Positions 14,963 through 52,271 of a DNA stretch of 64,000 nucleotides are shown here, piece by piece. This stretch comes from Polaribacter haliotis (GTDB lineage Bacteria > Bacteroidota > Bacteroidia > Flavobacteriales > Flavobacteriaceae). A program made the position numbers and the translations under genes. Within the stretch, counting starts at the first letter, position 1, and each line of letters opens with the position of its first letter. Under the pieces are notes generated by a model, which saw only the letters and a program-made list of their open reading frames with translations, made no database searches and was not told the origin of the DNA. The stretch covers positions 1-64,000 of the forward strand of contig NZ_CP061813.1 in assembly GCF_014784055.1 (NCBI RefSeq), read 5' to 3'.

Positions 14963-14971
14963 AAATCTATT

Positions 14972-16846: not shown

Positions 16847-16854
16847 AATTTATC

Positions 16855-18507: not shown

Positions 18508-18509
18508 TT

Positions 18510-24036: not shown

Positions 24037-24057
24037 ATGTATGTTTTTTGTTGGGGT
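24037..24057 (+). promoter_or_regulatory. 21-bp susC promoter motif, identical to 42202-42222
   Basis: The motif starts ATGTATG and ends TTGGGGT, with a T-run between. The same 21 bases occur upstream of the secreted module protein at 42289. ACCTT lies exactly 15 nt before the motif start in both places (24022 and 42187). It is likely a regulator binding site of the laminarin locus. Confidence 0.75.
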
Positions 24058-24088
24058 GTTTTTTATCAATTTAACAAGTAATCGTTCT

Positions 24089-24096
24089 TAATTTTA
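24089..24096 (+). promoter_or_regulatory. -7 promoter box of the laminarin susCD operon
   Basis: TAATTTTA resembles TAnnTTTG with a changed final base. It begins 31 nt after the 21-bp motif, exactly as at 42254, and lies 24 nt before the susC ATG. Confidence 0.55.
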
Positions 24097-24120
24097 CAGA
24101 AAAAATAAAACTCTTTATTC

Positions 24121-27100
24121 ATGAGAAAACAAATCACATTATTACTCTTTATGTTTATCGCTTTTTGTGTGCATGCACAAACTGTAAATGTAAAAGGTGT
24201 TGTTACAGATGCTACAACTGGAGATCCACTTCCTGGTGTAAGCGTAATTGTTAAAGGAACTGTTAAAGGTACTCAAACAGATTTCGATGGTATGTATAAT
24301 ATATCAAACGTTACTACAGGTGCAACTTTAGTATTTAGATACTTAGGTTATAAAGAAACTGAGGTATTGGTAAAAAACGCTACAGTTAATGTATCTCTAG
24401 AAGTAGAAGCACAAGCTTTAGATGAAATTGTAGTAATTGGTTATGGAACTCAAAAAAGGGCAGAAGTAACAGGTGCAGTTTCTGTGGTAAGTAACGAAAC
24501 TATAGAAAACCTAAAACCAACTAGAATAGAGCAAGCTTTACAAGGACAGGTTGCAGGTGTAAATATTACATCTTCTTCTGGAGCTCCTGGTGCAGGTTTA
24601 AATATTAGAATTAGAGGTGTTTCTACAAATGGAAACAACAATCCTTTAATTTTGTTAGATGGAAACGTTATTGAAGATTTAAGTGTGGTGAATCCATCAG
24701 ATATAGAATCTATGAACGTTTTAAAAGACGCAACTGCTGGTATTTATGGTGTTAGAGGTGCAAATGGTGTAATTTTAATTACTACTAAGAAAGGTAGAAA
24801 AAATACTGAATTTAAGTATACCTTTAATTCATATGTTGGTTTTCAACAAACAACTAGAAAAATTCCTTTATTAAATGCAACAGAATATGCCTTATTGGCA
24901 AATGAAGCTTTTGCTGCAAATGGAGAAGCTTTACCATTTTCTAACATTCTTAGTTTAGGACAAGGCACAGATTGGCAAAATGAAGTTTTTAAAGATGCAA
25001 TTATTTCTAGTGCAGATATTAATATTACTAAAGGAACTGAAAAATCTACTTTTTCATTTGGAGCCTCTCACTTAGATCAAGATGGTATAGTTGGTGGAAG
25101 TAAAGCAAACTTCAATAGAACAACTGCTAAATTTGGTTTTAGTCACGATATTTTAAAGAATTTAAAATTTAAGTCTTCCTCTATTTACACAAATACCAAT
25201 AGAAAAGGGTTGCCAGAAAATGCTTTAGGTTCAGTTTTATTTAATGCTTTAAATATGCCTGCAAATTTAACTCCTAGAGATGCAAATGGAGACTTTACAT
25301 TAGCGCCAAATACTGGAGTTGGTATTGAGGTAATTAATCCTTTAGCACAAACACAAAATTCATTCAATAGAACTTGGGTAAATAAATTTGCTGGAAGTTA
25401 TGGTTTAAACTATTCTTTTTTAGATGGTTTTTCTGCGGAGTCAAACATTCAATTTAATTATGCAAAAGTAAATTCTAAAAGTTATACACCAGAATTATTT
25501 TATGGTTCAGGAAAGGTGTTTAACACTGTTGGTGCAGCATCAGATTTAAATGATGGAATTAACAACTCAAGTGTTTTCGAGAGCCAGCAAACTTATAAAG
25601 ATTATACTTTTGATGCTTTTATAAAATACGAGAAAGTATTTAACGATGTACATGATGTAAAAATATTGTTAGGAACATCCGTTTTTAAATCGGAAGGAAT
25701 TAATGATTCTAACCTACTAGGGTTTGGTGCAAATGGAAATACTTTAGAAGATGTTAGTGTAGCTGGAGCAGATAGTTCTCAAGATAATTTAGCCCTTAGC
25801 AATCAACCAAGACAGTTTTTTGATAGTAGATTGCTATCTTACTTTACACGTTTACAGTATAATTACGATGGAAAATATTTATTCTCAGCTGTTGTAAGAA
25901 GAGATGGTTCATCTAATTTTGGACCAAAAAATAAATTCGGAATTTTTCCAACAGCATCCATTGGTTGGGTAGCTTCAAAAGAAAGTTTCTTAGAAGATTC
26001 AGAAGCAATTAGTTTTTTAAAATTAAGAGCAAGTTATGGTGTTATTGGAAATGACAGAATTGGTAGTTTCGGTTTTGTTTCAACAATTTCAGGTGAAGGA
26101 GAATATGTTTTTAACAACCAAATTAATTTTGGTACAGCAATTGGGGCCTTATCTAATCCAGAAATTAAATGGGAAAGACAAATACCTTTAGATTTTGGTA
26201 TAGATATCGAATTATTTGATAAAATAAATATTACTGCAGATTATTTTAATAAAAGAACAGAAGATTTATTATTAAATCCTCAAGTTTCAGGAATATTAGG
26301 AGTTTCTGCACCAGGTTCTGCAGGGCCAATTGTAAATGCAGGAACTGTAGAAAATAGAGGTTTCGAATTTGCTATTGGTTACAAAGAAAGAATTTCCGAA
26401 GACTTTAAATTTAGTATGAACTACAACTTTACAACAATTAAAAACGAAGTTTTATTTGTTGGTAGCGAAAGTGGCGTATTATTTGGCGGATCTTTTGGCG
26501 TTGGACAAGAACCACCATCAAGAATGGAAGCAGGTTTACCAATAGGATACTATTATGGATTTAAAACCAATGGAATTTTTCAAAACCAAGCAGAAGTAGA
26601 TGCTCATGCAACACAAACAAATGCAAATCCTGGAGATTTAAGATTTGTAGATCAATTAACTGTAGATACAGATAATGATGGAATTGCAGATGCTACAGAT
26701 GGTATTATTAATAACGATGATAAAACATATATTGGAGACCCAATTGCAGATGTAACTATGGGATTCAATTTCTCTTTCGATTATAAAAATTTCGATTTTA
26801 ACATGTATGCATTCGCATCAATTGGAAACGAAATTGTAAGAAATTACGAAAGAAACCTACCATTAACAAACAGACCAACATACTATTTAGATAGATGGAC
26901 AGGTCCTGGAACTAGTAACACTTTTCCAAGAGTAACTACAGGTGCTACAGGAAATTCTTTATTCTCAGATTTTTATGTGGAAGATGGTTCTTTCTTAAGA
27001 TTACAAAATATACAATTAGGATATTCTTTAAAAAACAATATTACAGAGCAAGTAGGTTTAAGTAAGTTGCGTTTTTATGTAACAGCAAATAATTTGTTTA

Positions 27101-27225
27101 CGTTAACAAAGTATAGAGGTTTCGATCCAACAACTTCTAATGGAGCTCCAATAGGTGGAGGTATAGATCAAGGTTTTTATCCAACACCAAAGACTTTTTT
27201 AGTTGGTTTAAATGTTAATTTTTAA
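24121..27225 (+). CDS. SusC-like TonB-dependent receptor of the laminarin locus
   Basis: A complete 1034-residue SusC-family outer-membrane transporter. It has a 20-residue signal peptide ending VHAQ, a carboxypeptidase-regulatory-like domain (about 22-105, GDPLPGVSVIVKGTVKGTQ), and the DEIVVIGYGTQKR segment. The plug domain follows (about 115-225, with VNPSDIESMNVLKDATA and YGVRGANGVILITTKKG), then a beta-barrel ending in the aromatic-rich KTFLVGLNVNF. It imports oligosaccharides with TonB energy. SusD starts 11 nt downstream. The enzymes that follow (GH16, GH149, GH17, GH30) point to beta-1,3/1,6-glucan as substrate. Confidence 0.96.
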   Translation: MRKQITLLLFMFIAFCVHAQTVNVKGVVTDATTGDPLPGVSVIVKGTVKGTQTDFDGMYNISNVTTGATLVFRYLGYKETEVLVKNATVNVSLEVEAQALDEIVVIGYGTQKRAEVTGAVSVVSNETIENLKPTRIEQALQGQVAGVNITSSSGAPGAGLNIRIRGVSTNGNNNPLILLDGNVIEDLSVVNPSDIESMNVLKDATAGIYGVRGANGVILITTKKGRKNTEFKYTFNSYVGFQQTTRKIPLLNATEYALLANEAFAANGEALPFSNILSLGQGTDWQNEVFKDAIISSADINITKGTEKSTFSFGASHLDQDGIVGGSKANFNRTTAKFGFSHDILKNLKFKSSSIYTNTNRKGLPENALGSVLFNALNMPANLTPRDANGDFTLAPNTGVGIEVINPLAQTQNSFNRTWVNKFAGSYGLNYSFLDGFSAESNIQFNYAKVNSKSYTPELFYGSGKVFNTVGAASDLNDGINNSSVFESQQTYKDYTFDAFIKYEKVFNDVHDVKILLGTSVFKSEGINDSNLLGFGANGNTLEDVSVAGADSSQDNLALSNQPRQFFDSRLLSYFTRLQYNYDGKYLFSAVVRRDGSSNFGPKNKFGIFPTASIGWVASKESFLEDSEAISFLKLRASYGVIGNDRIGSFGFVSTISGEGEYVFNNQINFGTAIGALSNPEIKWERQIPLDFGIDIELFDKINITADYFNKRTEDLLLNPQVSGILGVSAPGSAGPIVNAGTVENRGFEFAIGYKERISEDFKFSMNYNFTTIKNEVLFVGSESGVLFGGSFGVGQEPPSRMEAGLPIGYYYGFKTNGIFQNQAEVDAHATQTNANPGDLRFVDQLTVDTDNDGIADATDGIINNDDKTYIGDPIADVTMGFNFSFDYKNFDFNMYAFASIGNEIVRNYERNLPLTNRPTYYLDRWTGPGTSNTFPRVTTGATGNSLFSDFYVEDGSFLRLQNIQLGYSLKNNITEQVGLSKLRFYVTANNLFTLTKYRGFDPTTSNGAPIGGGIDQGFYPTPKTFLVGLNVNF

Positions 27226-27236
27226 TAAAAAATAAG

Positions 27237-28721
27237 ATGAAAAAATTAAACATAAAATTTTTAGCAACAATTATGTTACTTGTAGGTTTAACTGCTTGTA
27301 GCGATGATTTTGTAAATGTAGAATCTCAGGCAGAAAATTCTGAAGATTATTTCAATTCAGAAGAAGATTACCAAAATGCACTAGTAGGAGCATACGATTT
27401 ATTACAATCTACATACTTAAATGCACTTTTAGGAGAAATTGCTTCAGACAATACATTAGCAGGTGGCGAAAGCGCAACAGATGTAATAGGAATCCAAGAA
27501 GTAGATGATATGGTACACACACCAGTAAATCAACAACTAAGAGATATTTGGGGGTGGATGTTCTCTGGAGTTAATAGAACGAACTACATTTTAGAGTTTC
27601 AAGATAAAACAGATTTTGCAGGAAAAGATCAAGTAATTGCACAAGCAAGATTTTTAAGAGCTTACTATTATTTTGAATTGGTAAAATGGTTTGGAGATGT
27701 TCCATTAGTAGTAGATCAAAGAATATTATTCGGAGATCAATTTACTGTAGATAGAACTCCAAAAGCAGAAGTATATGCACAAATTGAAAAAGATTTAATA
27801 TTTGCAGCAAATACTTTACCATATATTCAAGCAGAAACAGGTAGAGTAACTAGAGGTGCAGCACAAGCATTACTAGGAAAAGCTTATTTATATCAAAATA
27901 AATTTGATGAAGCTGCAGGAATTTTAGATACTTTAATTACACAAGGACCTCATGCTTTAGTAACAGATGCTACTAGATTTATGAACCTATTTGAAAATGA
28001 TAACGAAAACAGTGTAGAGTCAGTTTTTGAAGTTCAATACACAGAAATTCAAGGAGCAGGTTTTGATTGTTTACAATGTAGTGAAGGTAATGTAGCAGTA
28101 GGATTTAGTGGTGTAAGAGGCTATAATGGACAAGATTTTACATCAGGATTTAGTTTTAACGTTCCTGTACAAGAATTAGTAGATGCTTTCGAAATGGGAG
28201 ATAGAAGAATAGATGTTGCAATTTTAGATATTGAAGCTTGGTCTCAACAAACTGGAGCAACTTTTGATAAAGGTTACGAGCATACTGGATACTTCAATAG
28301 AAAATATTTACCAAGAAAAAGAGGTGCAGATGCTCAAGGAGACAGAAACTTAACAAACCCAAATAATTATAGAGCAATACGTTTTGCAGATGTTTTATTA
28401 ATGGCTGCAGAAGCTTTTAATAAAAGTACAATTCCAAATGATGTAAAAGCACGAGGATACTTAAATCAGGTAAGACAACGTGCTTTCGGAGATATGTTAC
28501 ACAATGTTTCTTCATCAGGTTCAGCTCTAACAGAAGATGTTTATAAAGAAAGAAGAGTAGAGTTAGCAGGAGAAGGGCATCGTTTTTTCGACTTGGTTAG
28601 AACAGGTAAAGCAGCTCAAGAAATTAACGGTTTTGTTGCAGGTAAGCACGAATTGTTTCCAATTCCATCAATCGAAATTCAATTAGCTGGAAATAGATGG
28701 TCTCAAAATCCTAATTATTAA
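27237..28721 (+). CDS. SusD-like surface glycan-binding lipoprotein
   Basis: A 494-residue SusD/RagB lipoprotein with lipobox LTAC (Cys21) followed by SDD, an acidic stretch of the kind that directs Bacteroidota lipoproteins to the cell surface. TPR-like helices include RFLRAYYYFELVKWFGDVPLV, quoted core RAYYYFELVKWFGDVPLV, the hallmark of the family, and the C-terminal RRVELAGEGHRFFDLVR is equally characteristic. It caps the SusC channel and delivers glycan. It lies 11 nt after susC and 8 nt before the next lipoprotein gene, in the same operon. Confidence 0.96.
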   Translation: MKKLNIKFLATIMLLVGLTACSDDFVNVESQAENSEDYFNSEEDYQNALVGAYDLLQSTYLNALLGEIASDNTLAGGESATDVIGIQEVDDMVHTPVNQQLRDIWGWMFSGVNRTNYILEFQDKTDFAGKDQVIAQARFLRAYYYFELVKWFGDVPLVVDQRILFGDQFTVDRTPKAEVYAQIEKDLIFAANTLPYIQAETGRVTRGAAQALLGKAYLYQNKFDEAAGILDTLITQGPHALVTDATRFMNLFENDNENSVESVFEVQYTEIQGAGFDCLQCSEGNVAVGFSGVRGYNGQDFTSGFSFNVPVQELVDAFEMGDRRIDVAILDIEAWSQQTGATFDKGYEHTGYFNRKYLPRKRGADAQGDRNLTNPNNYRAIRFADVLLMAAEAFNKSTIPNDVKARGYLNQVRQRAFGDMLHNVSSSGSALTEDVYKERRVELAGEGHRFFDLVRTGKAAQEINGFVAGKHELFPIPSIEIQLAGNRWSQNPNY

Positions 28722-28729
28722 AAAATATA

Positions 28730-30883
28730 ATGATGAAAAAAAATAAAATTATATATAAACTTATAATTGCGCTTTTAATTATAAGCGCATGTACAGATAA
28801 TGTAAGAGATTTGGATTTTTTAGATAAGGTTTTACCACCTACTAACCTTACAGCTTCTTACGATATTACACAAGACAATACTGGTTTAGTTACAATTACA
28901 CCAACTGCAGAAGGAGCTCAAGAAATACAAGTGTTTTTTGGAGATGGAACAAACGAATTTGAAATTTTAACAAATGGAGAAAGTGTACAAAGAACATATA
29001 AAGAAGGTACTTTCGATGTTAAAATTGTTGCTTCTAATGCTGTTGGAAACAGTATAGAAATCATGCAACAATTAATAGTTTCTTTTAAAGCACCGCAAAA
29101 TTTGGTGGTTGTTATAGAAAATGATGCTGCAGTTTCTAAACAAGTAAATGTTACTGCGAATGCAGATTTTGCAACAATGTTCGATTTTTATTCTGGACAA
29201 ACTGGTTCAGATCCAGTTACAGGAAATATTGGAGAAACAATTACTTTTCAATATGATGAAGCTGGTACATACTCAGTTAGAGTTGTGGCAAAAGGTGGTG
29301 CAATAGCAACCACAGAATATACAGAAGATTTTATTGTAACCGAAATTTTAGATCCTACAACTTTAGCACCAAATCCACCTTTAAGAAATGCATCTGATGT
29401 AATTTCTTTATTTAGTGATGTATATACAAATGTTACTGTAGATACTTGGAATACATCTTGGAGCCAGGCTTCATTTGAAGATGTTACTATTAATGGAAAT
29501 GCAGTTAAAAAATATACCTCTTTAGGATTTAATGGAATCGAAACTACATCTAATCCATTGGATGCTAGTTCAATGACCCATGTTCATTTAGATGTTTGGA
29601 CACCAAATGCAACAGAAATTAAATTAAAGTTAGTAGATTTCTTAGGCGATGGTTTCGATGATGGTTCAAATAATTCTGAAGCAGAATTAACCTTTGCAAT
29701 AAATACTGGAGAGTGGACAAGCATAGACATTCCTTTAGCAGATTTTACAGCTGCAGGAATCACATCTTTTGCAGATATTAATCAGTATATAATTACAGCT
29801 ACACCATTTGGTTCTTCTATATTGTTTGTAGATAATTTTTACTTTCATAAACCACCATCAGAATTACAAAAGTTACCCGTTAATTTTGAATCAAGCACTT
29901 TAAATTATACTTGGACAGGTTTTGGAGATCCTAATTTCAGTGCTATACCAACAGCTGTTATTTCAAACCCAGATAAATCAGGTATTAATACAACAAATAC
30001 TGTATTAGAAATAGAAAAGCCTTCAGGTTCTCAAGTTTGGGCTGGTGCATCTATGCCATTAGATCAAGGGATAGATTTTTCAGCAGGAACTACAATTACT
30101 GTAAAAGTTTGGTCTCCAAGAGTGGGAACAGATATTTTACTAAAAATGGAAGATCCTACATCTCCAAAAGATGGTAATGGAAATCCTACAGTTTTTGCAG
30201 AAGTAAAAGCGACAACAACAGTAGCAAGTGCTTGGGAAGAACTATCTTTTGATATGACAACTTTTGCAAGTTTTAGCACAAGCATTGCATATAAAAATGT
30301 AATATTATTTCCAGATTTTGGAAACATGGGACAAGGAGAAAAGTTTTATTTCGATGATATAGAAATTGCATCTATAAAATTACCAGTTAATTTCGAAGTT
30401 CCAGGTTTAACATATACTTGGGTTGGTTTTGGAGACCCTAATTTTGGACCACTTCCAACTGCAATTATTTCTAATCCAGATGTAACAGGAATTAATATGA
30501 GTTCTACAGTTTTAGAAATTCAAAAACCATCAGGATCACAAGTTTGGGCAGGTGCTTCAATGGCACTAGATGCTCCAATAAACTTTGCTTATGGTACTAA
30601 AGTTAAAATTAAAGTCTGGTCTCCAAGAGTAGGAACTAAAATTTTATTTAAAACAGAAGATCCAAGTTCTCCAAAAGATGGTAATGGAAACCCAACTGTT
30701 TTTGTAGAAATTGAAGCAACTTCAACTGTTGCTAATCAGTGGGAAGAACTTACTTTCGATTTAACAAGTTCAGGATCTTTTAATACTTCTATAAATTATG
30801 AAAACGTTATTATTTTTCCAGATTTTGGAAATGGAGGTCAAGGAGAAAGCTTTTATTTTGATGACTTAATTTTAACAAACTAA
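28730..30883 (+). CDS. Multimodular surface glycan-binding lipoprotein (SusE/F position)
   Basis: A 717-residue lipoprotein (IISAC, Cys21; acidic TDNVRDLD after it). Two PKD-like domains (about 35-205) precede three carbohydrate-binding-like beta-sandwich modules. Module A (about 215-380) begins DVISLFSDVYTNV and is homologous to the repeats of the secreted protein at 42289. Modules B1 (about 382-548) and B2 (about 550-717) are near-duplicates 168 residues apart, each starting LPVNFE and containing KPSGSQVWAGASM and PKDGNGNPTVF. There is no catalytic motif. Its position after SusD and its modules indicate laminarin capture at the surface. The binding function is inferred, not shown. Confidence 0.85.
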   Translation: MMKKNKIIYKLIIALLIISACTDNVRDLDFLDKVLPPTNLTASYDITQDNTGLVTITPTAEGAQEIQVFFGDGTNEFEILTNGESVQRTYKEGTFDVKIVASNAVGNSIEIMQQLIVSFKAPQNLVVVIENDAAVSKQVNVTANADFATMFDFYSGQTGSDPVTGNIGETITFQYDEAGTYSVRVVAKGGAIATTEYTEDFIVTEILDPTTLAPNPPLRNASDVISLFSDVYTNVTVDTWNTSWSQASFEDVTINGNAVKKYTSLGFNGIETTSNPLDASSMTHVHLDVWTPNATEIKLKLVDFLGDGFDDGSNNSEAELTFAINTGEWTSIDIPLADFTAAGITSFADINQYIITATPFGSSILFVDNFYFHKPPSELQKLPVNFESSTLNYTWTGFGDPNFSAIPTAVISNPDKSGINTTNTVLEIEKPSGSQVWAGASMPLDQGIDFSAGTTITVKVWSPRVGTDILLKMEDPTSPKDGNGNPTVFAEVKATTTVASAWEELSFDMTTFASFSTSIAYKNVILFPDFGNMGQGEKFYFDDIEIASIKLPVNFEVPGLTYTWVGFGDPNFGPLPTAIISNPDVTGINMSSTVLEIQKPSGSQVWAGASMALDAPINFAYGTKVKIKVWSPRVGTKILFKTEDPSSPKDGNGNPTVFVEIEATSTVANQWEELTFDLTSSGSFNTSINYENVIIFPDFGNGGQGESFYFDDLILTN

Positions 30884-30896
30884 AATTTTAAAAAAA

Positions 30897-31814
30897 ATGA
30901 AAAACATAAAAAATCTATATATAATTCTATTTTCGTTAACGATTGGTTTTTACGGTTGTCAAGAAAACGATTATGAATTTGGAGAGATTATAGCTCCTTC
31001 GAACATTACAATTGAAGCAAGTATAGTTGGTGCAGACGCTTCTAATCCAAATGGAGATGGAAGTGGTGTTGTAAGTTTTAAAACGACTGCAAACAATGCC
31101 GTTTCTTATAAATACATTTTTAATGGAAATGCAAATGTGGCTCCTTCAGGAGAATACACTTACAGTTTTAGTAAATTAGGCTTAAATACCTATACTGTTA
31201 CAGTTGTAGCATCAGGAACTGCAGGAGTAAGTTCTAGTAAATCTATTGAAGTTCAAGTCTTATCTACCTATTCTCCACCACAAGAATTATTAGATAAATT
31301 ATATGGAACAGGTTCTAAAACTTGGAAAATTCAATCTGCAAAGCCAGGGCATTTTGGTTTAGGTTCTGTGGGTGGTCCAATGAACGAGTTTTATGGAGCA
31401 GGTCCAAATGAAAAAGCGGGTGTTGGAATGTATGACGATAGATATATCTTTAATTCAGATGGAACATTTAAACACATTACAGACAATACAAATGATGCAA
31501 CAGCTGTAAATACGGATGGAACCATTTTTGGACGTGACCCTTACATTGTAGACGATTTAGGGCCAACAAGTTTATCTCCAAATGGAGCAGATATCGAAAA
31601 CTATGTTTATAGCGATTATGATGCTACTTTTAGCTTATCAGCTCCTGGAGGACAAGAAACTATTTCTTTATCAGGAATTGGTTTTATTGGATATTATACT
31701 GGAGGTTCTCATAGTTACCAAATTGTAGATAGAGGAGTTCCTAACGAACTTGTTCTAAAAACAACGGATGGAAATGGACAATTCGACTGGTGGTTTATAA
31801 TCGTTTCAGAATAA
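30897..31814 (+). CDS. PKD-like surface lipoprotein, putative glycan-binding
   Basis: A 305-residue lipoprotein (FYGC, Cys21, then QENDYEFGE). An N-terminal PKD-like domain (about 30-125, with NPNGDGSGVVSF) is homologous to the N-terminal domain of the next gene's GH16 enzyme. The C-terminal 170 residues (SKTWKIQSAKPGHFGLGS onward) form a separate domain rich in Gly and aromatics that I recognise only as common in flavobacterial laminarin loci, without known catalysis. It starts 13 nt after the preceding gene and its stop is 5 nt before the GH16 ATG. The likely role is glycan binding or enzyme scaffolding. Confidence 0.75.
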   Translation: MKNIKNLYIILFSLTIGFYGCQENDYEFGEIIAPSNITIEASIVGADASNPNGDGSGVVSFKTTANNAVSYKYIFNGNANVAPSGEYTYSFSKLGLNTYTVTVVASGTAGVSSSKSIEVQVLSTYSPPQELLDKLYGTGSKTWKIQSAKPGHFGLGSVGGPMNEFYGAGPNEKAGVGMYDDRYIFNSDGTFKHITDNTNDATAVNTDGTIFGRDPYIVDDLGPTSLSPNGADIENYVYSDYDATFSLSAPGGQETISLSGIGFIGYYTGGSHSYQIVDRGVPNELVLKTTDGNGQFDWWFIIVSE

Positions 31815-31819
31815 ATAAT

Positions 31820-32920
31820 ATGAAATTATTCAAAACAAAATTTTATCTAACAATAATTGCTTCTTTCTTATTACTTTCTTGCGGAAGTTCGGAAGGAGGA
31901 GGAGAAGTAATTATTGACAATTCCATTATTCCAACAAATTTAACTATTGCTGTTGCTGTTGTAGGAGTTTCTAAAGCAAACCCTTCTGGAGATGGTTCTG
32001 GAGAGATAAAACTTACAGTTTCTGCAAAAGACGCAATTCGTTACAAAGTAAAATTTGGCGATGGAAATGAAACAGAATCAACCTCTGGAAATATAGATTA
32101 TACTTACACAAATGTGGGGTCAAATAAATATACAATAGAAGTAATTGCATTTTCCAAAACCGACGATTTTGTGAGCGATTTTATTCAACAAGAAGTTTTT
32201 GTTTCTGTGAATGGATTAAAGTTAGTTTGGTCAGATAATTTTGATTCAGATGGTGCTCCAGACCCAACAAAATGGACTTACGATCTTGGAAGAGGCAGTA
32301 ATGGTTGGGGTAATAATGAGTCTCAATTTTACACAAAAAGAACAGAAAATGTTACGATTAGTAATGGAACTCTAAAAATTAAAGCCAAGAAAGAGAATTT
32401 TTCCGGAGCAAATTATACATCAGCAAGATTAAAAACGCAAGGGTTATATAATTTTACCTATGGTCGTGTAGAAATTAGAGCAAAGTTACCTTCAACAAAA
32501 GGAACTTGGCCAGCACTATGGACATTGGGTTCTAACATTAATTCTGTTAGTTGGCCAAATTGTGGTGAAATAGATATAATGGAGCATATTGGTAACGAAT
32601 TAGGTAGAGTACAAAGTGCAACACACACACCTTCAAGTTTTGCAAATACACAAAATAAAGGAGCCACTTTTTCTAACAGTACATCAACTGCTTTTCATAT
32701 CTACGAATTAAGATGGACAGAAGAAAAATTAGAATTTTTATTCGATGGAGAATTGTATTACACATATAATCCATCAGTAAAAAATAGTAGTACTTGGCCT
32801 TTTAATTCTAGCCAATTCTTAATAATGAATGTTGCTATTGGAGGTACTTTAGGAGGAAATATAGATGCCTCTTTTACTGAAGATGTTATGGAAATAGATT
32901 ACATAAAAGTTTATCAATAA
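31820..32920 (+). CDS. Laminarinase (endo-beta-1,3-glucanase), GH16 lipoprotein
   Basis: A 366-residue lipoprotein from the ATG at 31820 (LLLSC, Cys21); a GTG 10 codons upstream lies inside the previous gene and is not used. A PKD-like domain (about 35-125) is followed by the GH16 jelly roll. The active-site motif is Glu250-Ile-Asp252-Ile-Met-Glu255 (GEIDIMEHIG), the laminarinase form with the extra Met. WALWTLG-type residues (TWPALWTLGSN) and ILMNVAIGG (FLIMNVAIGGTLGG) also fit. It cuts internal beta-1,3 bonds of laminarin at the surface, producing oligosaccharides for SusCD. It is the last gene before the terminator at 32941. Confidence 0.95.
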   Translation: MKLFKTKFYLTIIASFLLLSCGSSEGGGEVIIDNSIIPTNLTIAVAVVGVSKANPSGDGSGEIKLTVSAKDAIRYKVKFGDGNETESTSGNIDYTYTNVGSNKYTIEVIAFSKTDDFVSDFIQQEVFVSVNGLKLVWSDNFDSDGAPDPTKWTYDLGRGSNGWGNNESQFYTKRTENVTISNGTLKIKAKKENFSGANYTSARLKTQGLYNFTYGRVEIRAKLPSTKGTWPALWTLGSNINSVSWPNCGEIDIMEHIGNELGRVQSATHTPSSFANTQNKGATFSNSTSTAFHIYELRWTEEKLEFLFDGELYYTYNPSVKNSSTWPFNSSQFLIMNVAIGGTLGGNIDASFTEDVMEIDYIKVYQ

Positions 32921-32940
32921 ATTAATTTTGTTTTGATTTG

Positions 32941-32972
32941 AAAAGGTCGAAGGTATTTTATTCGACCTTTTT
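32941..32972 (+). terminator. Intrinsic terminator after GH16
   Basis: AAAAGGTCGAA (32941-32951) pairs with TTCGACCTTTT (32961-32971), giving an 11-bp stem and a 9-nt loop, then a T-tract. It ends the susCD-GH16 operon. Confidence 0.8.
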
Positions 32973-33010
32973 ATTAAAACTAAACTTCTATAATTTACAA
33001 TTAAATACAC

Positions 33011-33040
33011 TTTTGATTTTAAAGTAGTACATGAATTTTG
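33011..33040 (+). promoter_or_regulatory. Predicted promoter of the phosphorylase-GH17-GH30 operon
   Basis: TTTTG (33011-33015) and GAATTTTG (33033-33040, one mismatch to TAnnTTTG) are spaced by 17 nt and lie 39 nt before the ATG at 33080. The 21-bp motif of the susC promoter is absent here. Confidence 0.4.
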
Positions 33041-33079
33041 CACTCTTATTTTAATCAAAAATTATATAAAAAAATATTA

Positions 33080-36000
33080 ATGAGTACTGTTTTACAAGAA
33101 AATAAATTAGAGTCTAATGGAAAATTAGTTTCTATAAATAACGAGTCGTTTTATAAAATTTCTGATAGCCATCTAATGCGTCCGTTTTTTATGACGATTG
33201 TTTCAGATGCAAACCATTGGATGTTCATCTCTAGTAATGGAGGGTTAACAGCTGGGAGAAAAAATGCACAAAATGCACTTTTTCCATATTATACAGATGA
33301 TAAAATTACAGCTTTAGCAGAAACTTCTGGAACGAAAACAATCTTCAGAATTACAAAAAACAACCAGAATTCACTTTGGGAACCATTTTCTGAAAGGCAA
33401 GCAGGACTTTATAATATTTCAAGAAATTTATATAAAAACGTTTACGGAAATAAAGTAATTTTCGAAGAGATAAATCACGATTTAGAACTTACTTTTAAAT
33501 ACGAGTGGAATTCTAGTAATAAATTTGGTTTCATAAGAAAACCAACACTTTTAAATAATTCTTTGGAAGAAATTTCTGTGGAAGCTTTAGATGGTTTTCA
33601 AGATTTGTTACCAGCAGGTATTGGTTCGGAATTTCAATTAAGCTACAGTAATTTAGCAGATGCTTATAAGAAATGCGAGTTAGAAAAAGAAGTTGGTCTA
33701 GGTATTTATGCGTTAAGCGCGATAATTGTTGATAAAGCAGAACCAAGTGAAGCTTTAAAAGCAAATGTTGTTTGGTCTTTAGGTATAGATAATCCTACTT
33801 TTTTATTATCAACTTTACAATTAAATAATTTTAGAAGAGGCATTTCTTTAGAGGAAGAAGTAGACTTGAAAGCAGAAAAAGGAGCCTACTTAACTCAGTT
33901 TAATTTCTCACTTTCTTCGGGCAAAGATAAAAATTGGATGCAAGTTGCAGAGGTAAATCAAACTGTTTCTCAAATTCATAAAATTGCAGCTCAAATTTCA
34001 TCAGAAAAAAATCTACAAGAAATTGTTGAACAAGACGTTGAATTAGGAACCGAAAACTTAATAAAGTTAACAGCAGGAGCAGATGGTTTACAACTTACAA
34101 ACGACAAATTAGTAAATACAAGACATTTTTCGAATACACTTTTCAATATCATGAGAGGTGGGATTTTCGATGATAATTATACCATTGAAAAAGAAGATTT
34201 TATTCAATATGTATCGAAAGCAAACAAAACTGTTTTTGCAGACAAAAAACAAGAATTAGAAAATTTACCAGTGAAATTCACCTTAGATTTTTTAAGAGAA
34301 TTTGCTAAAAAAGATTCAAATTCAAATTTTAAAAGACTTTCTTTAGAATATTTACCATTAAAATTTAGTAGAAGACATGGAGATCCAAGTAGACCTTGGA
34401 ACAAGTTTTCTATAAATACACAAAGTGAAGTTGATGGTTCTAAAATTTTAGATTACGAAGGGAATTGGCGAGATATTTTCCAGAATTGGGAAGGTTTAGC
34501 ACATTCATATCCTCAATTTATTGAGAGTATGATTCATAAATTCTTAAATGCCACAACTTTTGAAGGTTATAATCCTTACAGAGTTACAAAAGGTGGTTTC
34601 GATTGGGAAATTATCGAAGAACACGATCCTTGGTCTTATATTGGGTATTGGGGAGATCATCAAATTATTTATTTGTTGAAGTTTTTAGAGTTTATAGAAG
34701 ACCATTATCCGAATGAATTATTAAAATTATTTACGGAAAACGTTTTTGTATATGCAAATGTGCCTTATAAAATAAAATCGTATCAAGATATTCTTAAAAA
34801 CCCTAAAGACACGATTGATTTCGATTACAAATTAAATGTAGAAATCGATGAAAAAAGAGCGCATTTAGGAGCGGATGGCGCTTTAATTGAAGATAAAAAT
34901 AACGCCATTTACAAGGTAAATCTAATAGAAAAATTATTAGTTACTGTTTTGGCGAAAATAGCCAACTTTATTCCTGAAGGTGGAATTTGGTTAAATACAC
35001 AAAGACCAGAATGGAACGATGCCAACAACGCTTTGGTTGGAAATGGTGTTTCTATGGTTACTTTAAATTACTTGCGACGTTTTATCGATTTTTATGAAAA
35101 TTTAGTTAAAAAATCGGAAGTTGATAATATAGAAATTTCTGAAGAATTAGCAGTTTTCTTCTTTAAAGTTTTAGAAACTTTAGAAGAGAATAAGCATATT
35201 TTATCAGGTAATTTTTCAGATGTTGATAGAAAAACTGTTTTAGACGGTTTAGGAAATCCTGCAAGTGTGTATAGAGAATCAGTTTACAAAAACGGATTTT
35301 CAGCAAAGAAAAAGAACCTTTCAAAAGAAAATTTATTAGAATTTTTCGAAACTACAAAAGCGTATTTAGAGCATACAATTAGAGCAAATAAACGTGATGA
35401 CAATATGTATCACGCTTATAATTTAATGACGATTAATTCAAACAAAGAAGTTTCTATTTCTTATTTATCTGAAATGTTAGAAGGGCAAGTTGCTGCTTTA
35501 AGTTCTGGTTATTTAAGTGCAAAGGACGCCTTGGATTTATTGGACGGATTAAAAAATAGCGCACTATTTAGGAAAGACCAATACAGTTATATTTTATATC
35601 CGAATAAAGAATTACCAAGGTTTACTAAGAAAAATAATATTGATTCAGAACGTGTAGAAAAATCTGAATTATTATCTACATTAATTAAAAACAACGATCA
35701 AACAATTGTTGAAAAAGATGTCCATGGAAATTATCATTTCAATGGAAATTTCAACAATGCAAATAGCGTAAAAGAAGCATTAGATAAATTACCAAAAGAA
35801 AAATATAAAAATCTTTTAAAAAAGGATAGTCAAGATGTTTTAAACATTTTCGAAGAAGTTTTCGACCACAAATCTTTTACAGGTCGTTCTGGAACATTTT
35901 TCGGTTACGAAGGTTTAGGTTCTATTTATTGGCATATGGTTTCTAAGTTGCTTTTAGCGGTTCAAGAAAACTGTTTATTGGCAATAAATAATAACGAAAG

Positions 36001-36514
36001 TGAAGCAATAATAGGAAGATTATTAGACCATTATTACGAAATAAATGCAGGAGTTGGCGTACATAAATCACCAAATTTATATGGCGCTTTTCCAACAGAT
36101 GCTTATTCACATACACCAGCAGGAAAAGGAGCACAACAACCAGGAATGACTGGGCAAGTAAAAGAAGATGTTTTAAATAGATTTGGAGAGTTAGGTGTTT
36201 TTGTTACAGAAGGGAAGATAGTTTTCAATCCAAGATTATTAAAACAAGAGGAGTTTTTAACAAGCGAAAATGACTTTGAGTATATATCTGTTTCTGGGGA
36301 AAATAAAAAACTAAGCTTAGCTTCAGGTAATTTGGCTTTTACATTTTGTCAAGTTCCTGTGGTTTATGAATTGGCCTCAAAAAATAGCATTCAATTATTT
36401 TATAATGATGGAAATAAAAAAGAAATTGAAGGTTTACAATTAAACACAATAATAAGTAAAGAAATTTTTGAAAGAACAAATGCTATTGAAAAAATAGTAG
36501 TTCTTATAAAATAA
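33080..36514 (+). CDS. Beta-1,3-glucan/oligosaccharide phosphorylase, GH149-type
   Basis: A 1144-residue cytoplasmic protein with no signal peptide. The ATG at 33080 is chosen over an in-frame TTG 14 codons upstream. Size and motifs fit the GH149 phosphorylases, which use phosphate to release glucose-1-phosphate from beta-1,3-oligoglucans. The N-terminal beta-sandwich has FISSNGGLTAGRKNAQN. The (alpha/alpha)6 barrel has RRHGDPSRPWNKF and GGFDWEIIEEHDPW, whose Asp508/Asp516 are catalytic candidates. The C-terminus has GRSGTFFGYEGLGSIYWHM and VGVHKSPNLYGAFPTDAYS. GH94 and GH161 are less likely given length. It heads an operon with GH17 (5 nt gap). It is the beta-glucan counterpart of the maltose phosphorylase at 5446. 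Confidence 0.8.
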   Translation: MSTVLQENKLESNGKLVSINNESFYKISDSHLMRPFFMTIVSDANHWMFISSNGGLTAGRKNAQNALFPYYTDDKITALAETSGTKTIFRITKNNQNSLWEPFSERQAGLYNISRNLYKNVYGNKVIFEEINHDLELTFKYEWNSSNKFGFIRKPTLLNNSLEEISVEALDGFQDLLPAGIGSEFQLSYSNLADAYKKCELEKEVGLGIYALSAIIVDKAEPSEALKANVVWSLGIDNPTFLLSTLQLNNFRRGISLEEEVDLKAEKGAYLTQFNFSLSSGKDKNWMQVAEVNQTVSQIHKIAAQISSEKNLQEIVEQDVELGTENLIKLTAGADGLQLTNDKLVNTRHFSNTLFNIMRGGIFDDNYTIEKEDFIQYVSKANKTVFADKKQELENLPVKFTLDFLREFAKKDSNSNFKRLSLEYLPLKFSRRHGDPSRPWNKFSINTQSEVDGSKILDYEGNWRDIFQNWEGLAHSYPQFIESMIHKFLNATTFEGYNPYRVTKGGFDWEIIEEHDPWSYIGYWGDHQIIYLLKFLEFIEDHYPNELLKLFTENVFVYANVPYKIKSYQDILKNPKDTIDFDYKLNVEIDEKRAHLGADGALIEDKNNAIYKVNLIEKLLVTVLAKIANFIPEGGIWLNTQRPEWNDANNALVGNGVSMVTLNYLRRFIDFYENLVKKSEVDNIEISEELAVFFFKVLETLEENKHILSGNFSDVDRKTVLDGLGNPASVYRESVYKNGFSAKKKNLSKENLLEFFETTKAYLEHTIRANKRDDNMYHAYNLMTINSNKEVSISYLSEMLEGQVAALSSGYLSAKDALDLLDGLKNSALFRKDQYSYILYPNKELPRFTKKNNIDSERVEKSELLSTLIKNNDQTIVEKDVHGNYHFNGNFNNANSVKEALDKLPKEKYKNLLKKDSQDVLNIFEEVFDHKSFTGRSGTFFGYEGLGSIYWHMVSKLLLAVQENCLLAINNNESEAIIGRLLDHYYEINAGVGVHKSPNLYGAFPTDAYSHTPAGKGAQQPGMTGQVKEDVLNRFGELGVFVTEGKIVFNPRLLKQEEFLTSENDFEYISVSGENKKLSLASGNLAFTFCQVPVVYELASKNSIQLFYNDGNKKEIEGLQLNTIISKEIFERTNAIEKIVVLIK

Positions 36515-36519
36515 GTAAA

Positions 36520-37794: not shown

Positions 37795-37802
37795 ACGAAT
37801 AA

Positions 37803-38810
37803 ATGATGAAAAAAATCTTATTAATTCCTATTGTTCTATTTGTTTTAATTTCTTGTAATAAAGAAGTTAAAAGTGATGTGGTTACTGTTTCTGGAAGAAA
37901 AATAATGGTAAATAATCAACCTTATTTAATTAAAGGAATCTGTTATCATCCAGTTCCAAAAGGTTCTGATAAAAGAGATTTTGGCAATCTTACGCAAGAT
38001 TTATCTTTAATGAAAGAAGCAGGAATAAACACAATTAGAGTGTATGAACCTATTGAAGAAGTTGCTGTTTTAGATGAGATTAATAAAGCAGAGATAAAAG
38101 TAATTATCGGTTTTGGCTACAATCAAGGAGGTAAAAATGATATTCTTTCGGGCACTTTTATCAATTATGTAAATAAATTCAAAAACCACAATGCAATTTT
38201 AATGTGGGAGTTAGGAAACGAATATAATTATCATCCAGAATGGTTTGAAGGTGATATTAAAAACTGGTATACAGCAATGAATGCTGCCTCAGAAATCATT
38301 CACGAAAACGATAAAAATCATCCAACAACAACAGCTCATGGAGATTTACCAGATGCATTAGCTTTATCTATGAGTAAAAATATAGATGTTTGGGGAATGA
38401 ATGTTTATAGATGGGATAATCCAGAAACAATTTTTGCTCAATGGGAAAAAGTAAGCGAAAAACCAATGTATTTATCAGAAGCTGGAGGAGATAGTTATAT
38501 GGTAATTGAAAAAGCAGGTTACAAAAAAGGAGTCAACGAAAAAGCACAAGCAGATGCTACTTTAAATGTTTTAAAAAAATCATTTACGAACAAAAATATC
38601 TGCTCAGGAATCACTTTATTTTCTTTTACAGACGGTTGGTGGAAAGCAGGAGATAACACCACACAAGATATTGGTGGTTGGGCACCCAACAGTTCTGGAG
38701 TTCCTTATGATGGATCACCAAATGAAGAATTTTGGGGAATTGTAGATATTGAAAGAAATAAAAAACAAGCTTTTAAAGTAGTGCAAACACTTTATGAAGA
38801 ACAAAATTAA
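37803..38810 (+). CDS. Clan GH-A glycosidase lipoprotein, family uncertain (GH2-core/GH5/GH158-like)
   Basis: A 335-residue lipoprotein (VLISC, Cys18) that is a single TIM barrel. The sequence VSGRKIMVNNQPYLIKGICYHP resembles the barrel entry of GH2 and GH5 enzymes (quoted core NNQPYLIKGICYHP). The two catalytic Glu are visible, Glu140 in WELGNEYNYHP and Glu226 in MYLSEAGGDS, and DVWGMNVYRWDNP lies between them. It lacks the beta-sandwich domains of full GH2 enzymes. GH158 endo-beta-1,3-glucanase is a plausible home given context, but I cannot place it by eye. It lies between GH17 and GH30 (4 nt to the GH30 ATG), so beta-glucan is the inferred substrate. Confidence 0.75.
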   Translation: MMKKILLIPIVLFVLISCNKEVKSDVVTVSGRKIMVNNQPYLIKGICYHPVPKGSDKRDFGNLTQDLSLMKEAGINTIRVYEPIEEVAVLDEINKAEIKVIIGFGYNQGGKNDILSGTFINYVNKFKNHNAILMWELGNEYNYHPEWFEGDIKNWYTAMNAASEIIHENDKNHPTTTAHGDLPDALALSMSKNIDVWGMNVYRWDNPETIFAQWEKVSEKPMYLSEAGGDSYMVIEKAGYKKGVNEKAQADATLNVLKKSFTNKNICSGITLFSFTDGWWKAGDNTTQDIGGWAPNSSGVPYDGSPNEEFWGIVDIERNKKQAFKVVQTLYEEQN

Positions 38811-38814
38811 AATT

Positions 38815-40308
38815 ATGAAAAAAAGCACACATTTTTTAAGCGTTTTTTTACTTGTAATGATGATGAGTTGCGAAAGTAATAGCAAAAAATTATCTGTTGA
38901 AGTTTTTGAAACTTCAGAAAGCGGAAATAAGTTAACAAAAATTTCTAATTTTAATACAAATGAAAATGCTTCAATTATAAAGTTAGATACTTCTAAAACT
39001 TTCCAAACCATTACTGGTTTTGGAGGAGCTTTTACTGAATCTTCTGCTTATTTACTTAATCGATTAAGTAAAAAAAATAGAGATACTATTCTACAAGCTT
39101 ATTTTTCAAAAGACGGTGCAAATTATTCATTAACTAGAACGCACATGAATTCTTGTGATTTTTCTTTGTCTCAATATTCATATTCACCAGTTGAAGATGA
39201 CATGGAATTAGAACATTTTACAATTAAAGAAGATAAAGACGATTTAATTCCGATGATAAAGGATGCAATGAAAGTGTCTGAAGATGGTTTTAAAATATTC
39301 GCTTCTCCTTGGACAGCTGCTCCTTGGATGAAAGATAACAAAAAATGGGTTGGAGGAAAATTACTATCAAAATATTATGATACATGGGCACTTTTCTTTT
39401 CAAAATATATAGACGCTTATAAGGAAGAGGGAATAGATATTTGGGGTTTTACAGTAGAAAATGAACCTTTAGGAAATGGGAATAATTGGGAATCTATGCA
39501 TTATTCTCCTGATGAAATGACCAATTTTGTTAAAAATCATTTAGGACCAAAATTAGACGAAGATTATCCAAATGTAAAGATTTTAGGATATGATCAAAAT
39601 AGAGAACATTTAAAAGAATGGGTAGATTCTCAATTTAAAAACGAGGAAACCTCTAAATATTTTGATGGAACAGCCATTCATTGGTATGCAAGTACTTATG
39701 ATTTTTTTGCAGAAGAATTACAATACGCACATCATAAAGCCCCAAATAAATACTTAATAGAAACAGAAGGTTGTATCGATTCTCAGGTTCCAGAATGGAA
39801 AAACGATGCTTGGTATTGGAAAAAAGAAGCAACAGATTGGGGTTGGGATTGGGCTCCAGAAAAAGACAAACATTTGCATCCAAAATATGCGCCAGTTAAT
39901 AGATATGCAAGAGATATTATTGGTTGCTTAAATAATTGGGTAGATGGTTGGGTAGACTGGAACATGGTTTTAGACAAACAAGGAGGCCCAAATTGGTTTA
40001 AAAATTGGTGTGTGGCTCCTGTAATTGTAGATCCAGAAAAAGATGAAGTTTATTTTACGCCACTTTATTATACAATGGCTCATTTTAGTAAATATATTAG
40101 ACCAGAGGCTAAAGTTATAGGTTTAGAGAATTCTGATAAAGATTTACAAGTTACAGCAGTTGAAAATCAAGATGGTTCGATAGCAGTTGTTGTTTTCAAT
40201 GAAGGAAAAATTGCGAAGGATTTCAAATTACAATTTGGCGAAAAAGAAACTGCAATACATATAAGTGCACAAGCATTACAAACAATTATAATATCAAATA
40301 AAAATTAA
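38815..40308 (+). CDS. GH30 beta-glucosidase/beta-1,6-glucanase lipoprotein
   Basis: A 497-residue lipoprotein starting at ATG 38815, just after the previous stop (lipobox MMSC, Cys19). An ATG seven codons upstream overlaps the previous gene and lengthens the signal, so it is not preferred. GH30 signatures are ITGFGGAFTESSAYLLNRL, acid/base Glu217 (TVENEPLG) and nucleophile candidate Glu318 (IETEGC). FASPWTAAPWMK is also typical. The C-terminal beta-domain closes the protein. In laminarin loci of marine Bacteroidota, GH30 enzymes remove beta-1,6 side glucose, the expected role here. The 3' neighbour transporter follows after 4 nt. Confidence 0.92.
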   Translation: MKKSTHFLSVFLLVMMMSCESNSKKLSVEVFETSESGNKLTKISNFNTNENASIIKLDTSKTFQTITGFGGAFTESSAYLLNRLSKKNRDTILQAYFSKDGANYSLTRTHMNSCDFSLSQYSYSPVEDDMELEHFTIKEDKDDLIPMIKDAMKVSEDGFKIFASPWTAAPWMKDNKKWVGGKLLSKYYDTWALFFSKYIDAYKEEGIDIWGFTVENEPLGNGNNWESMHYSPDEMTNFVKNHLGPKLDEDYPNVKILGYDQNREHLKEWVDSQFKNEETSKYFDGTAIHWYASTYDFFAEELQYAHHKAPNKYLIETEGCIDSQVPEWKNDAWYWKKEATDWGWDWAPEKDKHLHPKYAPVNRYARDIIGCLNNWVDGWVDWNMVLDKQGGPNWFKNWCVAPVIVDPEKDEVYFTPLYYTMAHFSKYIRPEAKVIGLENSDKDLQVTAVENQDGSIAVVVFNEGKIAKDFKLQFGEKETAIHISAQALQTIIISNKN

Positions 40309-40312
40309 TATT

Positions 40313-41809
40313 ATGTCAAACTCTAATTCTACATCTAAAGTTCCATTTGGGCAAAAAGTAGCATTCGGAATAGGAATGTTAGCAAACCAAATGTTTCCAG
40401 CTATTTTAGGAATTTTTATGGTGGTTTTGGTACAGGATTTAGGCTTCCCTGGTTGGATGTGGGGTGTGTTGTTTTTTCTGCCAAGAGTTTTCGACTCCAT
40501 TACAGATCCAATAATGGGTTTTATTTCTGATAATACAAAATCGAAATGGGGAAGAAGAAGACAATATGTATTTATTGGTGCTATTATTATGGGAGCCGCT
40601 TTTATTATGATGTGGCAACTGCATAGAGAAGATGGTATCGATTATAATTTTATGTATTTTCTTTTATGGTCTTTCGTATTTTATTTAGGACTTACAATTT
40701 TTAGTGTTCCCTATGTAGCAATGGGTTATGAGATGAGTAACGATTTTCATGAACGCACAAACATTATGGCAGTTGCACAATGGATTGGCCAATGGGCTTG
40801 GGTAATTGCACCTTGGTTTTGGGTTATTATGTACGACCAAGGTTGGTTCGAAACTGCAGACATTGCTACAAGAGAATTGGCTATTTATGTAGGTATTATT
40901 TGTATGTTATTTGCTATGGTACCAGCTATTTTTATCAAAAGTAAATCTACTTTAAATGAAAATTATTCACCCTTAACATTTAAAAATATTGGAGGAAGTT
41001 TAAAAGAAATATTAAACGGATTTAAAGAAGCTTTTAAATCAGAACCTTTTAGAAAATTATGTATTGCTACATTTTTTATATTCAATGCATTTAATACAAT
41101 TGCAAGTTTTTCATTCTTTATAGTAGTTTATTATTTATTTAATGGAGATGCAGGTGCTGCAGGAATTTGGCCAACCTTATTTGGTAGTATTGGTGCTTTA
41201 GCCACCACATTTTTAGTAATTCCTATAGTTACAAAAATGTCTAAAGTAATGGGTAAAAAGAATGCATTTATAGTATCACAAGGAATTTCTATAATTGGGT
41301 ATGTAATGTTGTGGTTTTTATTTATTCCAGGAAAACCATATATGTTTATTTTTGCATTGCCATTTTTCTCATTCGGAATAGGAAGTTTATTTACTTTAAT
41401 GATGTCCATGACTGCAGATGTTATTGACTTAGATGAGTTAAATACTGGTAAACGAAGAGAAGGAATTTTTGGTGCGATTTATTGGTGGATGGTAAAATTC
41501 GGTTTTGCGATTGCAGGTTTATTAACTGGTGCAATTATGACGCTTGTTGGTTTTGATCCAAGTGTAGCTGTACAACCAGAAGGAGCTGTAACAGGTTTAA
41601 GAATGTTCTATTCAGGTTTTCCAATTTTAGGAACATTGGTAGCCATGTTTATAATGCGTAATTATAATGTTACTGAAGAAAAAGCAAGAGAAATTAGAAC
41701 AGAACTAGATAAGAGATTACTTGTAAAAGAGAAGGATACAAATAGAAAAAATAAGAACAGAATTAAAAATAAAGAGTTATATAATTCAATTTCAATAGCT
41801 GATAAATAA
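40313..41809 (+). CDS. GPH-family sugar:cation symporter, probably for laminari-oligosaccharides or glucose
   Basis: A 498-residue inner-membrane protein of about 12 helices. The loop MGFISDNTKSKWGRRRQYVF (residues about 65-84) is the signature of glycoside-pentoside-hexuronide symporters, as is VFDSITDPIMG. A second signature is LDELNTGKRREGIFGAIYWW (about 378-397). It ends in a long charged cytoplasmic tail rich in Lys/Arg/Asn. It is the last gene of the phosphorylase-GH17-GH30 operon and would bring oligosaccharides to the cytoplasmic phosphorylase. A strong terminator follows at 41869. Confidence 0.9.
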   Translation: MSNSNSTSKVPFGQKVAFGIGMLANQMFPAILGIFMVVLVQDLGFPGWMWGVLFFLPRVFDSITDPIMGFISDNTKSKWGRRRQYVFIGAIIMGAAFIMMWQLHREDGIDYNFMYFLLWSFVFYLGLTIFSVPYVAMGYEMSNDFHERTNIMAVAQWIGQWAWVIAPWFWVIMYDQGWFETADIATRELAIYVGIICMLFAMVPAIFIKSKSTLNENYSPLTFKNIGGSLKEILNGFKEAFKSEPFRKLCIATFFIFNAFNTIASFSFFIVVYYLFNGDAGAAGIWPTLFGSIGALATTFLVIPIVTKMSKVMGKKNAFIVSQGISIIGYVMLWFLFIPGKPYMFIFALPFFSFGIGSLFTLMMSMTADVIDLDELNTGKRREGIFGAIYWWMVKFGFAIAGLLTGAIMTLVGFDPSVAVQPEGAVTGLRMFYSGFPILGTLVAMFIMRNYNVTEEKAREIRTELDKRLLVKEKDTNRKNKNRIKNKELYNSISIADK

Positions 41810-41868
41810 AATTAACTATGTATAATTAATATTATTTATAGTAATATTTTTAGAAATTATTTTTAAAT

Positions 41869-41902
41869 AAAAACACTACTTAAAATGTAGTGTTTTTTTT
41901 TT
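41869..41902 (+). terminator. Strong intrinsic terminator after the GPH transporter
   Basis: An 11-bp stem (AAAAACACTAC with GTAGTGTTTTT) and a 7-nt loop are followed by a run of 10 T residues from 41893 to 41902. Confidence 0.88.
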
Positions 41903-42201
41903 GAGAAGATTTTAAATTTAATTTTGTTGTTTATTAAAAGATAATTTAAAACCTACCTCGTTGTTTTTTAATAATTTAATTTTTAATAAATCAGTTTTAA
42001 TTATGTGAATTTCATTTTTTTAAATCAATACATTTAAAAACAGTAGCTTAACATTTCGATTGCTAACAATACATTACCCATACAAAACCATTTTTGATAT
42101 AAAATATATAAAATTTTATTTATTAACTGAATTTTACTTATAAGCCTATTATTACTGGTTATTATTTGGGTTATTAATAATTAATTACCTTTTATTTTAC
42201 A

Positions 42202-42222
42202 ATGTATGTTTTTTGTTGGGGT
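42202..42222 (+). promoter_or_regulatory. 21-bp promoter motif identical to the one upstream of laminarin susC
   Basis: All 21 bases match 24037-24057, and ACCTT occurs at the same 15-nt offset upstream (42187). The distance to the -7 box (31 nt) is also identical. This strongly suggests one regulator controls both promoters. Confidence 0.75.
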
Positions 42223-42253
42223 ATTAATTAAGAATATTTCAATAAAGTGGATG

Positions 42254-42261
42254 TATTTTTG
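42254..42261 (+). promoter_or_regulatory. -7 promoter box of the secreted module protein gene
   Basis: TATTTTTG matches TAnnTTTG exactly, 31 nt after the shared motif and 27 nt before the ATG. Confidence 0.65.
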
Positions 42262-52082: not shown

Positions 52083-52109
52083 TAAATCTTCAAGAGAAAT
52101 TATTGGAAA

Positions 52110-52143: not shown

Positions 52144-52149
52144 AATTGT

Positions 52150-52248: not shown

Positions 52249-52271
52249 TGGGTTGAAAAATATTATAATAA

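Follow-up and report, generated by a model that had tools for sequence, protein, structure and literature searches.

A 21-bp candidate operator and its paired regulator at two promoters of a laminarin locus in Polaribacter haliotis

Laminarin is an algal sugar, and the enzymes that degrade it are well studied. In the open-licence literature, as far as its titles and abstract openings go, we found no description of how laminarin genes are switched on and no operator named. A laminarin locus of Polaribacter haliotis raises this question directly. Within the window, which is the whole 64,000-nt stretch analyzed here (positions 1–64,000 of contig NZ_CP061813.1), the same 21 bases, ATGTATGTTTTTTGTTGGGGT, occur at 24037–24057 (+) and 42202–42222 (+), upstream of an operon encoding SusC and SusD and of a gene for a protein of the type IX secretion system (T9SS). 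An original prediction made from this sequence regarded the element as the operator of the locally encoded regulator (21107–23911), joining the two transcription units in a small regulon. The comparisons reported below support the conservation of the element, its position, the two-promoter layout and a change of operator together with the recognition helix of the regulator. On these grounds the regulator very likely binds the 21-bp element and activates both promoters.

The 21-bp element and its promoters

Both copies are exact and lie between open reading frames (ORFs) according to the ORF list. With up to three mismatches allowed, the genome, a single contig of 3,800,626 bases, has no other site (reversed-pattern control none), and 100 dinucleotide shuffles of the window gave no match at this threshold; the genome scan proposed in the original prediction thus returned two intergenic sites and none in coding DNA. 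Scored with the family profile, the next-best place in the window reaches 8.2 bits, so that only the two operators score high (Table 1), and autoregulation was rejected, the regulator gene having no site upstream of it. The 31-nt gap between motif and −7-like box had been correctly read at both promoters (TAATTTTA and TATTTTTG); both boxes, described as TAnnTTTG-like, are there, the first ending in A and not in G. The ACCTT noted earlier does start 15 nt before both motifs (24022 and 42187), but no role for it is supported: it stands at −15 in only these two of the 72 aligned sites described below, a matter of chance, and was rejected as a second half of the operator. As predicted, the remaining flanks are only slightly alike, sharing 50 of 120 bases upstream, where shuffling gives a mean of 41.5, and 30 of 63 downstream, where it gives 21.4; this is the expectation for two promoters of one build. 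Two sites drawn from the family profile (70 sites, window excluded) would be identical with a probability of about 0.07; given this profile, it is unremarkable in itself that the two copies match exactly.

The element recurs across the family. At no more than two mismatches, 62 of 299 family genomes carry the 21-mer at 76 sites (74 stretches fetched around sites outside the window plus the window's two), against five sites for the reversed control. Fifty-eight of the 76 are located 128–196 bp behind a homologue of the regulator. The next gene encodes SusC in 35 cases, a protein resembling glycoside hydrolase (GH) family 2 in 21, a homologue of the T9SS protein in 6 (window included) and a GH16 enzyme in 2, while in 12 cases no gene of known type was called. 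An alignment of 72 sites (the 76 minus L136, L148, L191 and L211) yielded the consensus nTGTAT(G/A)TTTTTTGT(T/A)GnGGT, i.e. nTGTATRTTTTTTGTWGnGGT, with a T tract directly upstream. A TAnnTTT(A/G) box, taken as the best fit within 22–36 nt with ties resolved towards 30, follows at 30 nt in 63 sites, 31 nt in 7 and 29 nt in 2, whereas at the 65 sites for which a start codon was called, this codon follows the operator at anything from 55 to 199 nt. When a degenerate pattern was searched in 395 genomes of the phylum, 25 matched (reversed control one site; rows counted by hand), namely 23 of 41 in the family, 1 of 8 elsewhere in the order, 1 of 49 elsewhere in the class and none of the 297 others. 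Judged by this distribution, the 21-bp element is an old operator; together with the non-duplicate flanks, its recurrence also favors selection over recent copying, as originally proposed.

The second promoter was followed within the genus. In 34 of 116 genomes (that of P. haliotis included), at least two sites on one strand lie within 45 kb of each other, and 24 of the 46 pair distances fall between 16.8 and 20.6 kb, the value being 18.2 kb in P. haliotis; the listed sites of these pairs mostly differ in sequence. This search, at no more than three mismatches, was noisy: its 150 sites, spread over 81 of the 116 genomes, compare with 39 for the reversed control (hand-counted). Among 20 second sites that were fetched, 12 stand before an evident homologue of the T9SS protein in the window, three (L329, L337, L346) a protein matching by the end of its sorting tail only, two (L335, L347) a T9SS-tailed frame seen by eye, and three (L342, L343, L345) a GH2-like protein. 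Seventeen of the 20 thus precede T9SS-type proteins, 5 of these 17 being recognized by the sorting tail alone. Starting from the protein instead, 12 of 25 regions with a T9SS homologue contained a site of at least 10 bits, against none of the 25 with the reversed profile; 11 of these 12 sites directly precede the homologous frame, and the one in L263 another frame. The two-site genome, the 17 second sites of the genus and the T9SS homologues found past a site at no more than two mismatches in other genera (five, in five genera) argue for the small regulon of the original prediction, made up of the SusCD operon and the T9SS gene.

The third claim of that prediction, that the operon starting at 33080 with a GH149 phosphorylase gene lacks the motif, was confirmed. 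The best operator score upstream of it is −16.2 bits in the window (family profile), and in all 10 relatives whose stretch reached the gene the best scores are below zero on both strands; a degenerate operator at this place was rejected. The phosphorylase operon is therefore predicted to be outside the regulon, or reached by read-through only.

The regulator and its recognition helix

From its N-terminus, the regulator is composed of a signal peptide (by eye), periplasmic beta-propellers, a Y_Y_Y domain, one membrane helix at about residues 733–752 (hydropathy), a long helix and a LuxR/GerE helix-turn-helix (HTH; PF00196, 31.7 bits, cut-off 23.5). Pfam hmmscan returned only Y_Y_Y, GerE and a match to sigma-70 region 4 below its cut-off, with no histidine kinase, receiver or AraC-type HTH in the chain. 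Residues 885–920 average 95% identity to 39 relatives, the propeller 54%. In the structure model (mean pLDDT 81, pTM 0.62), propeller strands extend to about residue 614, followed by the Y_Y_Y part, the long helix from 736 and the HTH helices at 879–918. By sequence profile and fold, the sensor resembles PDB entries 4a2l, 3v9f and 3ott, which are sensors of hybrid two-component systems (HTCS), with the proviso that the whole-chain root-mean-square deviation is about 23, the domains being placed differently, and that many unrelated propellers score nearly as high. Because an HTCS-type sensor was matched and no kinase or receiver was found in Pfam, the protein may be read as a one-component transmembrane form of HTCS, SusR-like in layout.

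To approach the pairing from the protein side, we assembled loci found by protein (named loci, the top 30 matches in the family and regions retrieved from the position of the protein), 82 of which were distinct and had enough sequence. A skeleton site occurs within 420 nt past the stop codon in 75 of the 82, compared with 5 for the reverse complement of the stretch and 6 for the reversed stretch. Some genomes possess a second regulator of the same family (class B), with the helix (I/V/T)KSVETK in place of what is mostly (P/S/V)RSVE(V/I)K; ATGTTCGTTTTTTATCGAGGT or a near form was found at similar distance past six such regulators (L280, L281, L283–L286). In a comparison of 133 regulators, 125 of them with a site, Val or Ile at residue 910 goes with AT at operator positions 5–6 (the TGTAT core) in 117 of 117 cases, while Thr goes with AT in none of 8 (six TC, one CG, one CT). 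These comparisons suggest that the operator changes with the recognition helix of its regulator, which is new here. The positions behind the regulator gene, from the site side and from the protein side, and the change at residue 910 all speak for the element being the operator of the local regulator. As a genome-wide pattern the class B operator was discarded: its 7 sites in 299 genomes equal the 7 of the reversed control, so that only the position behind class B regulators carries weight, and two stretches retrieved with this pattern (L293, L298) contain no class B regulator within their 3 kb. The class B regulator L280 precedes SusC, SusD and a GDPD-family gene, and L285 is also accompanied by a GDPD gene.

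Several observations weigh against this account. Four of the 76 sites are unconnected with the system (L136, L148 and L191 within ORFs, and L211), 13 of the 25 T9SS-homologue regions (L245–L269) have no site, nor has L270, and 8 of the 133 regulators have none at up to three skeleton mismatches. One of the eight Thr-910 regulators, L289, is associated with an intermediate core. The motif itself had served to find part of the class A sample; in the regulator-first subset, the TGTAT type is present in 68 of 68 Val/Ile regulators and 0 of 7 Thr regulators. Finally, the Thr-910 form (9 rows) needs a single change in a tree of 114 regulators, where its branch support is weak (39); for this reason the Thr-910 regulators are probably one lineage, and the operator switch may be one event and not many independent ones.

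The T-to-C changes at operator positions 6 and 16 suggest two tandem half-sites 10 bp apart. One could go further and see in this family a readable code, in which head-to-tail half-sites at positions 5–7 and 15–17 would be read according to residue 910, as ATG and TTG/TAG by Val/Ile regulators and as TCG and TCG by most of the Thr lineage, T turning into C in both half-sites together as though one residue read the same base twice. We put this forward tentatively, as a possibility that falls somewhat short of an even chance. If true, the code would make the polysaccharide utilization locus (PUL) regulons of marine Flavobacteriaceae predictable from regulator sequence alone, and residue 910 is a candidate determinant of specificity, open to exchange in a laboratory strain.

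One further gene of the genome, at 230672–233383 (L153), encodes a protein that matches the regulator over its full length at E 1e-5 (32% identity), the only one to do so besides the regulator itself. It lies near genes for GH3, glycoamylase-like, major facilitator superfamily (MFS) and T9SS/CBM4_9 proteins, and its HTH differs. Use of the same operator by this paralogue was rejected, the best profile score in the 700 nt behind its gene being −23.5.

Mechanism, alternatives and known systems

We propose that a laminarin breakdown product would be sensed by the regulator in the periplasm, and that its cytoplasmic HTH would bind the operator directly upstream of the core promoter and thereby activate transcription. 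Given the fixed gap to the −7 box, the HTH may touch RNA polymerase from about −60 to −40. Two units would be driven in this way, the operon of SusC, SusD, surface protein and GH16, and the T9SS gene 18 kb away.

Other explanations have to be weighed against this mechanism. Another factor, such as a global regulator or an alternative sigma factor, could bind the element and serve the same loci by coincidence; the genome has further regulators of related build, including the 32% identical paralogue, and some sites precede genes that do not adjoin a regulator gene. A global factor, however, would be expected to have many sites where this genome has two, and the site both is found past the regulator gene at 75 of the 82 regulator-first loci and changes with the recognition helix. 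The −35 element of a sigma factor is found about 16–20 nt from the −10/−7 box, whereas the operator is about 30 nt from it, and we consider this explanation improbable in either form. The direction of control is not given by sequence alone, and the regulator might bind as a repressor relieved by laminarin products. With its end about 30 nt ahead of the −7-like box, the site is placed as activators usually are, and not as repressors that cover the start, and in the accessible part of the published account SusR of Bacteroides thetaiotaomicron is a characterized activator (PMC3878776), making repression unlikely here.

An action at the RNA level, through a leader or an mRNA stability signal, would fit the co-orientation of the element with the gene wherever a downstream gene was called (opposite-strand genes were not sought), but is very improbable for an element kept 29–31 nt upstream of a −7-like box at variable distances from the start codon. 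The identity of the 21 bases could also reflect a recent promoter duplication without wider meaning; with flanks that are not duplicates, and with site pairs that recur in the genus at similar spacing and mostly differ in sequence, there is hardly any room for it.

Two published types of regulator are relevant for comparison, as described in the accessible part of one study (Ravcheev 2013, PMC3878776). SusR and SusR-like proteins of Bacteroides, like the present regulator, are PUL-local, combine sensor and DNA-binding parts in one chain and act on susCD genes, and their predicted direct-repeat operator is another point of likeness. In the SusR motifs, two boxes are separated by 67 or 77 bp, whereas the present operator is a single 21-bp block for which no comparable partner was found, the proteins being likened by layout. 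In the region 45–120 nt upstream of the 72 sites, we found only three weakly conserved columns (−61, −60 and −50; at most 0.44 bits), and columns −124 and −123 reach 0.43 and 0.83 bits. The HTCS of Bacteroides (BT4663, BT3049, BT4673) share the periplasmic propeller and Y_Y_Y sensor, but the present regulator carries a LuxR/GerE HTH and none of the kinase, receiver and AraC domains sought in Pfam; HTCS motifs are reported as direct repeats averaging 21 bp apart (PMC3878776). The present operator thus appears to differ from both types as published there.

The laminarin PULs of Formosa and Muricauda have a gene set much like this one (SusC/D, PKD, GH16, GH17, GH30, GH149), many such clusters being headed by a LuxR gene (PMC13188888) and those of Formosa showing laminarin-specific expression (PMC6246565); in their accessible parts, these accounts describe no operator or regulon (PMC6246565, PMC13188888). 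A family-wide operator with its paired regulator provides a direct genome test of membership in the laminarin response, and this test already brings in a secreted protein with carbohydrate-binding folds and excludes the GH149 phosphorylase operon.

Locus layout and neighboring genes

SusC and SusD stand directly past operator 1, a PUL-local layout shared by the 35 of 76 sites where SusC is next. The 305-aa protein of this operon matches no Pfam family at E 0.001. The GH149 operon spans 33080–41809 and encodes GH149, GH17, a GH2-like TIM barrel, GH30 and an MFS transporter. Because a terminator-like hairpin precedes operator 2, the T9SS gene is likely its own transcription unit.

Table 1. Features of the laminarin locus in the window.
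Feature	Position	Strand	Evidence
Regulator, 934 aa	21107..23911	+	Pfam, hydropathy, structure model, sensor profile/fold matches
Operator 1 (class A)	24037..24057	+	exact copy, upstream of SusC gene; family profile 36.8 bits
−7-like box TAATTTTA	24089-24096	+	31 nt past operator 1; sequence
SusC (TonB-dependent outer-membrane transporter), first gene past operator 1	24121..27225	+	TIGR04056 818.6 bits
SusD	27237..28721	+	Pfam search
PKD-type surface protein	28730..30883	+	PKD 28.7 bits; module common to T9SS protein
305-aa protein, SusCD operon	30897..31814	+	ORF
GH16 enzyme, last gene of SusCD operon	31790..32920	+	Pfam search
Terminator-like hairpin, SusCD/GH149 operon boundary	32939..32973	+	32935-32985 folds to −15.8 kcal/mol
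GH149 beta-1,3-glucan phosphorylase	33080..36514	+	NF058639 1785.7 bits, cut-off 1150
Terminator-like hairpin and T run, between phosphorylase operon and operator 2	41869..41897	+	fold of 41810-41905
Operator 2 (class A)	42202..42222	+	exact copy, upstream of T9SS protein gene; 36.8 bits
−7-like box TATTTTTG	42254-42261	+	31 nt past operator 2; sequence
Secreted T9SS protein, 793 aa, past operator 2	42289..44670	+	N-terminal CBM-like domain (carbohydrate-binding module), three near-identical repeats, sorting tail

The T9SS protein ends in a C-terminal sorting domain (PF18962, 56.6 bits, cut-off 27), and has four domains of carbohydrate-binding fold, of a putative sugar-binding type. Its fold is similar to that of the laminarin-binding CBM X584 (PDB 8qx6), at 22% identity and with no sequence match at E 0.01; a single repeat likewise found no match in PDB by sequence at E 0.01. 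The module of the PKD-type protein aligns with repeat 1 across 168 columns at 38% identity, with a score of 266 where the best of 200 shuffles reached 63. Within the gene, three 504-nt tandem repeats (42928–44439) are identical at 467–488 of 504 bases in pairwise comparison, and from this closeness they are a recent internal duplication.

The GH2-like proteins encoded past the operator in other genomes are mostly about 1060 aa long. Those inspected (L195, L122, L139 and others) combine a GH2-like TIM barrel with a long C-terminal part, which by eye resembles an outer-membrane barrel.

Upstream of the laminarin locus, the window carries alpha-glucan genes (GH65, GH13, GH31, GH97) at 5446–20627. 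Its end, 46227–64000, is occupied by three consecutive giant ORFs on the same strand, of 1951, 1965 and at least 1814 aa. GEVED and T9SS sorting domains are present in the first and the second; an Rfam scan of 57000–64000 gave no match at the gathering score. In Polaribacter aestuariivivens (L066), SusD, the PKD protein, the 305-aa protein and GH16 are 81–89% identical to those of the window, the regulator and SusC only 48% and 69%, and the site is kept with three mismatches; its regulator and transporter may have been replaced or be fast-evolving.

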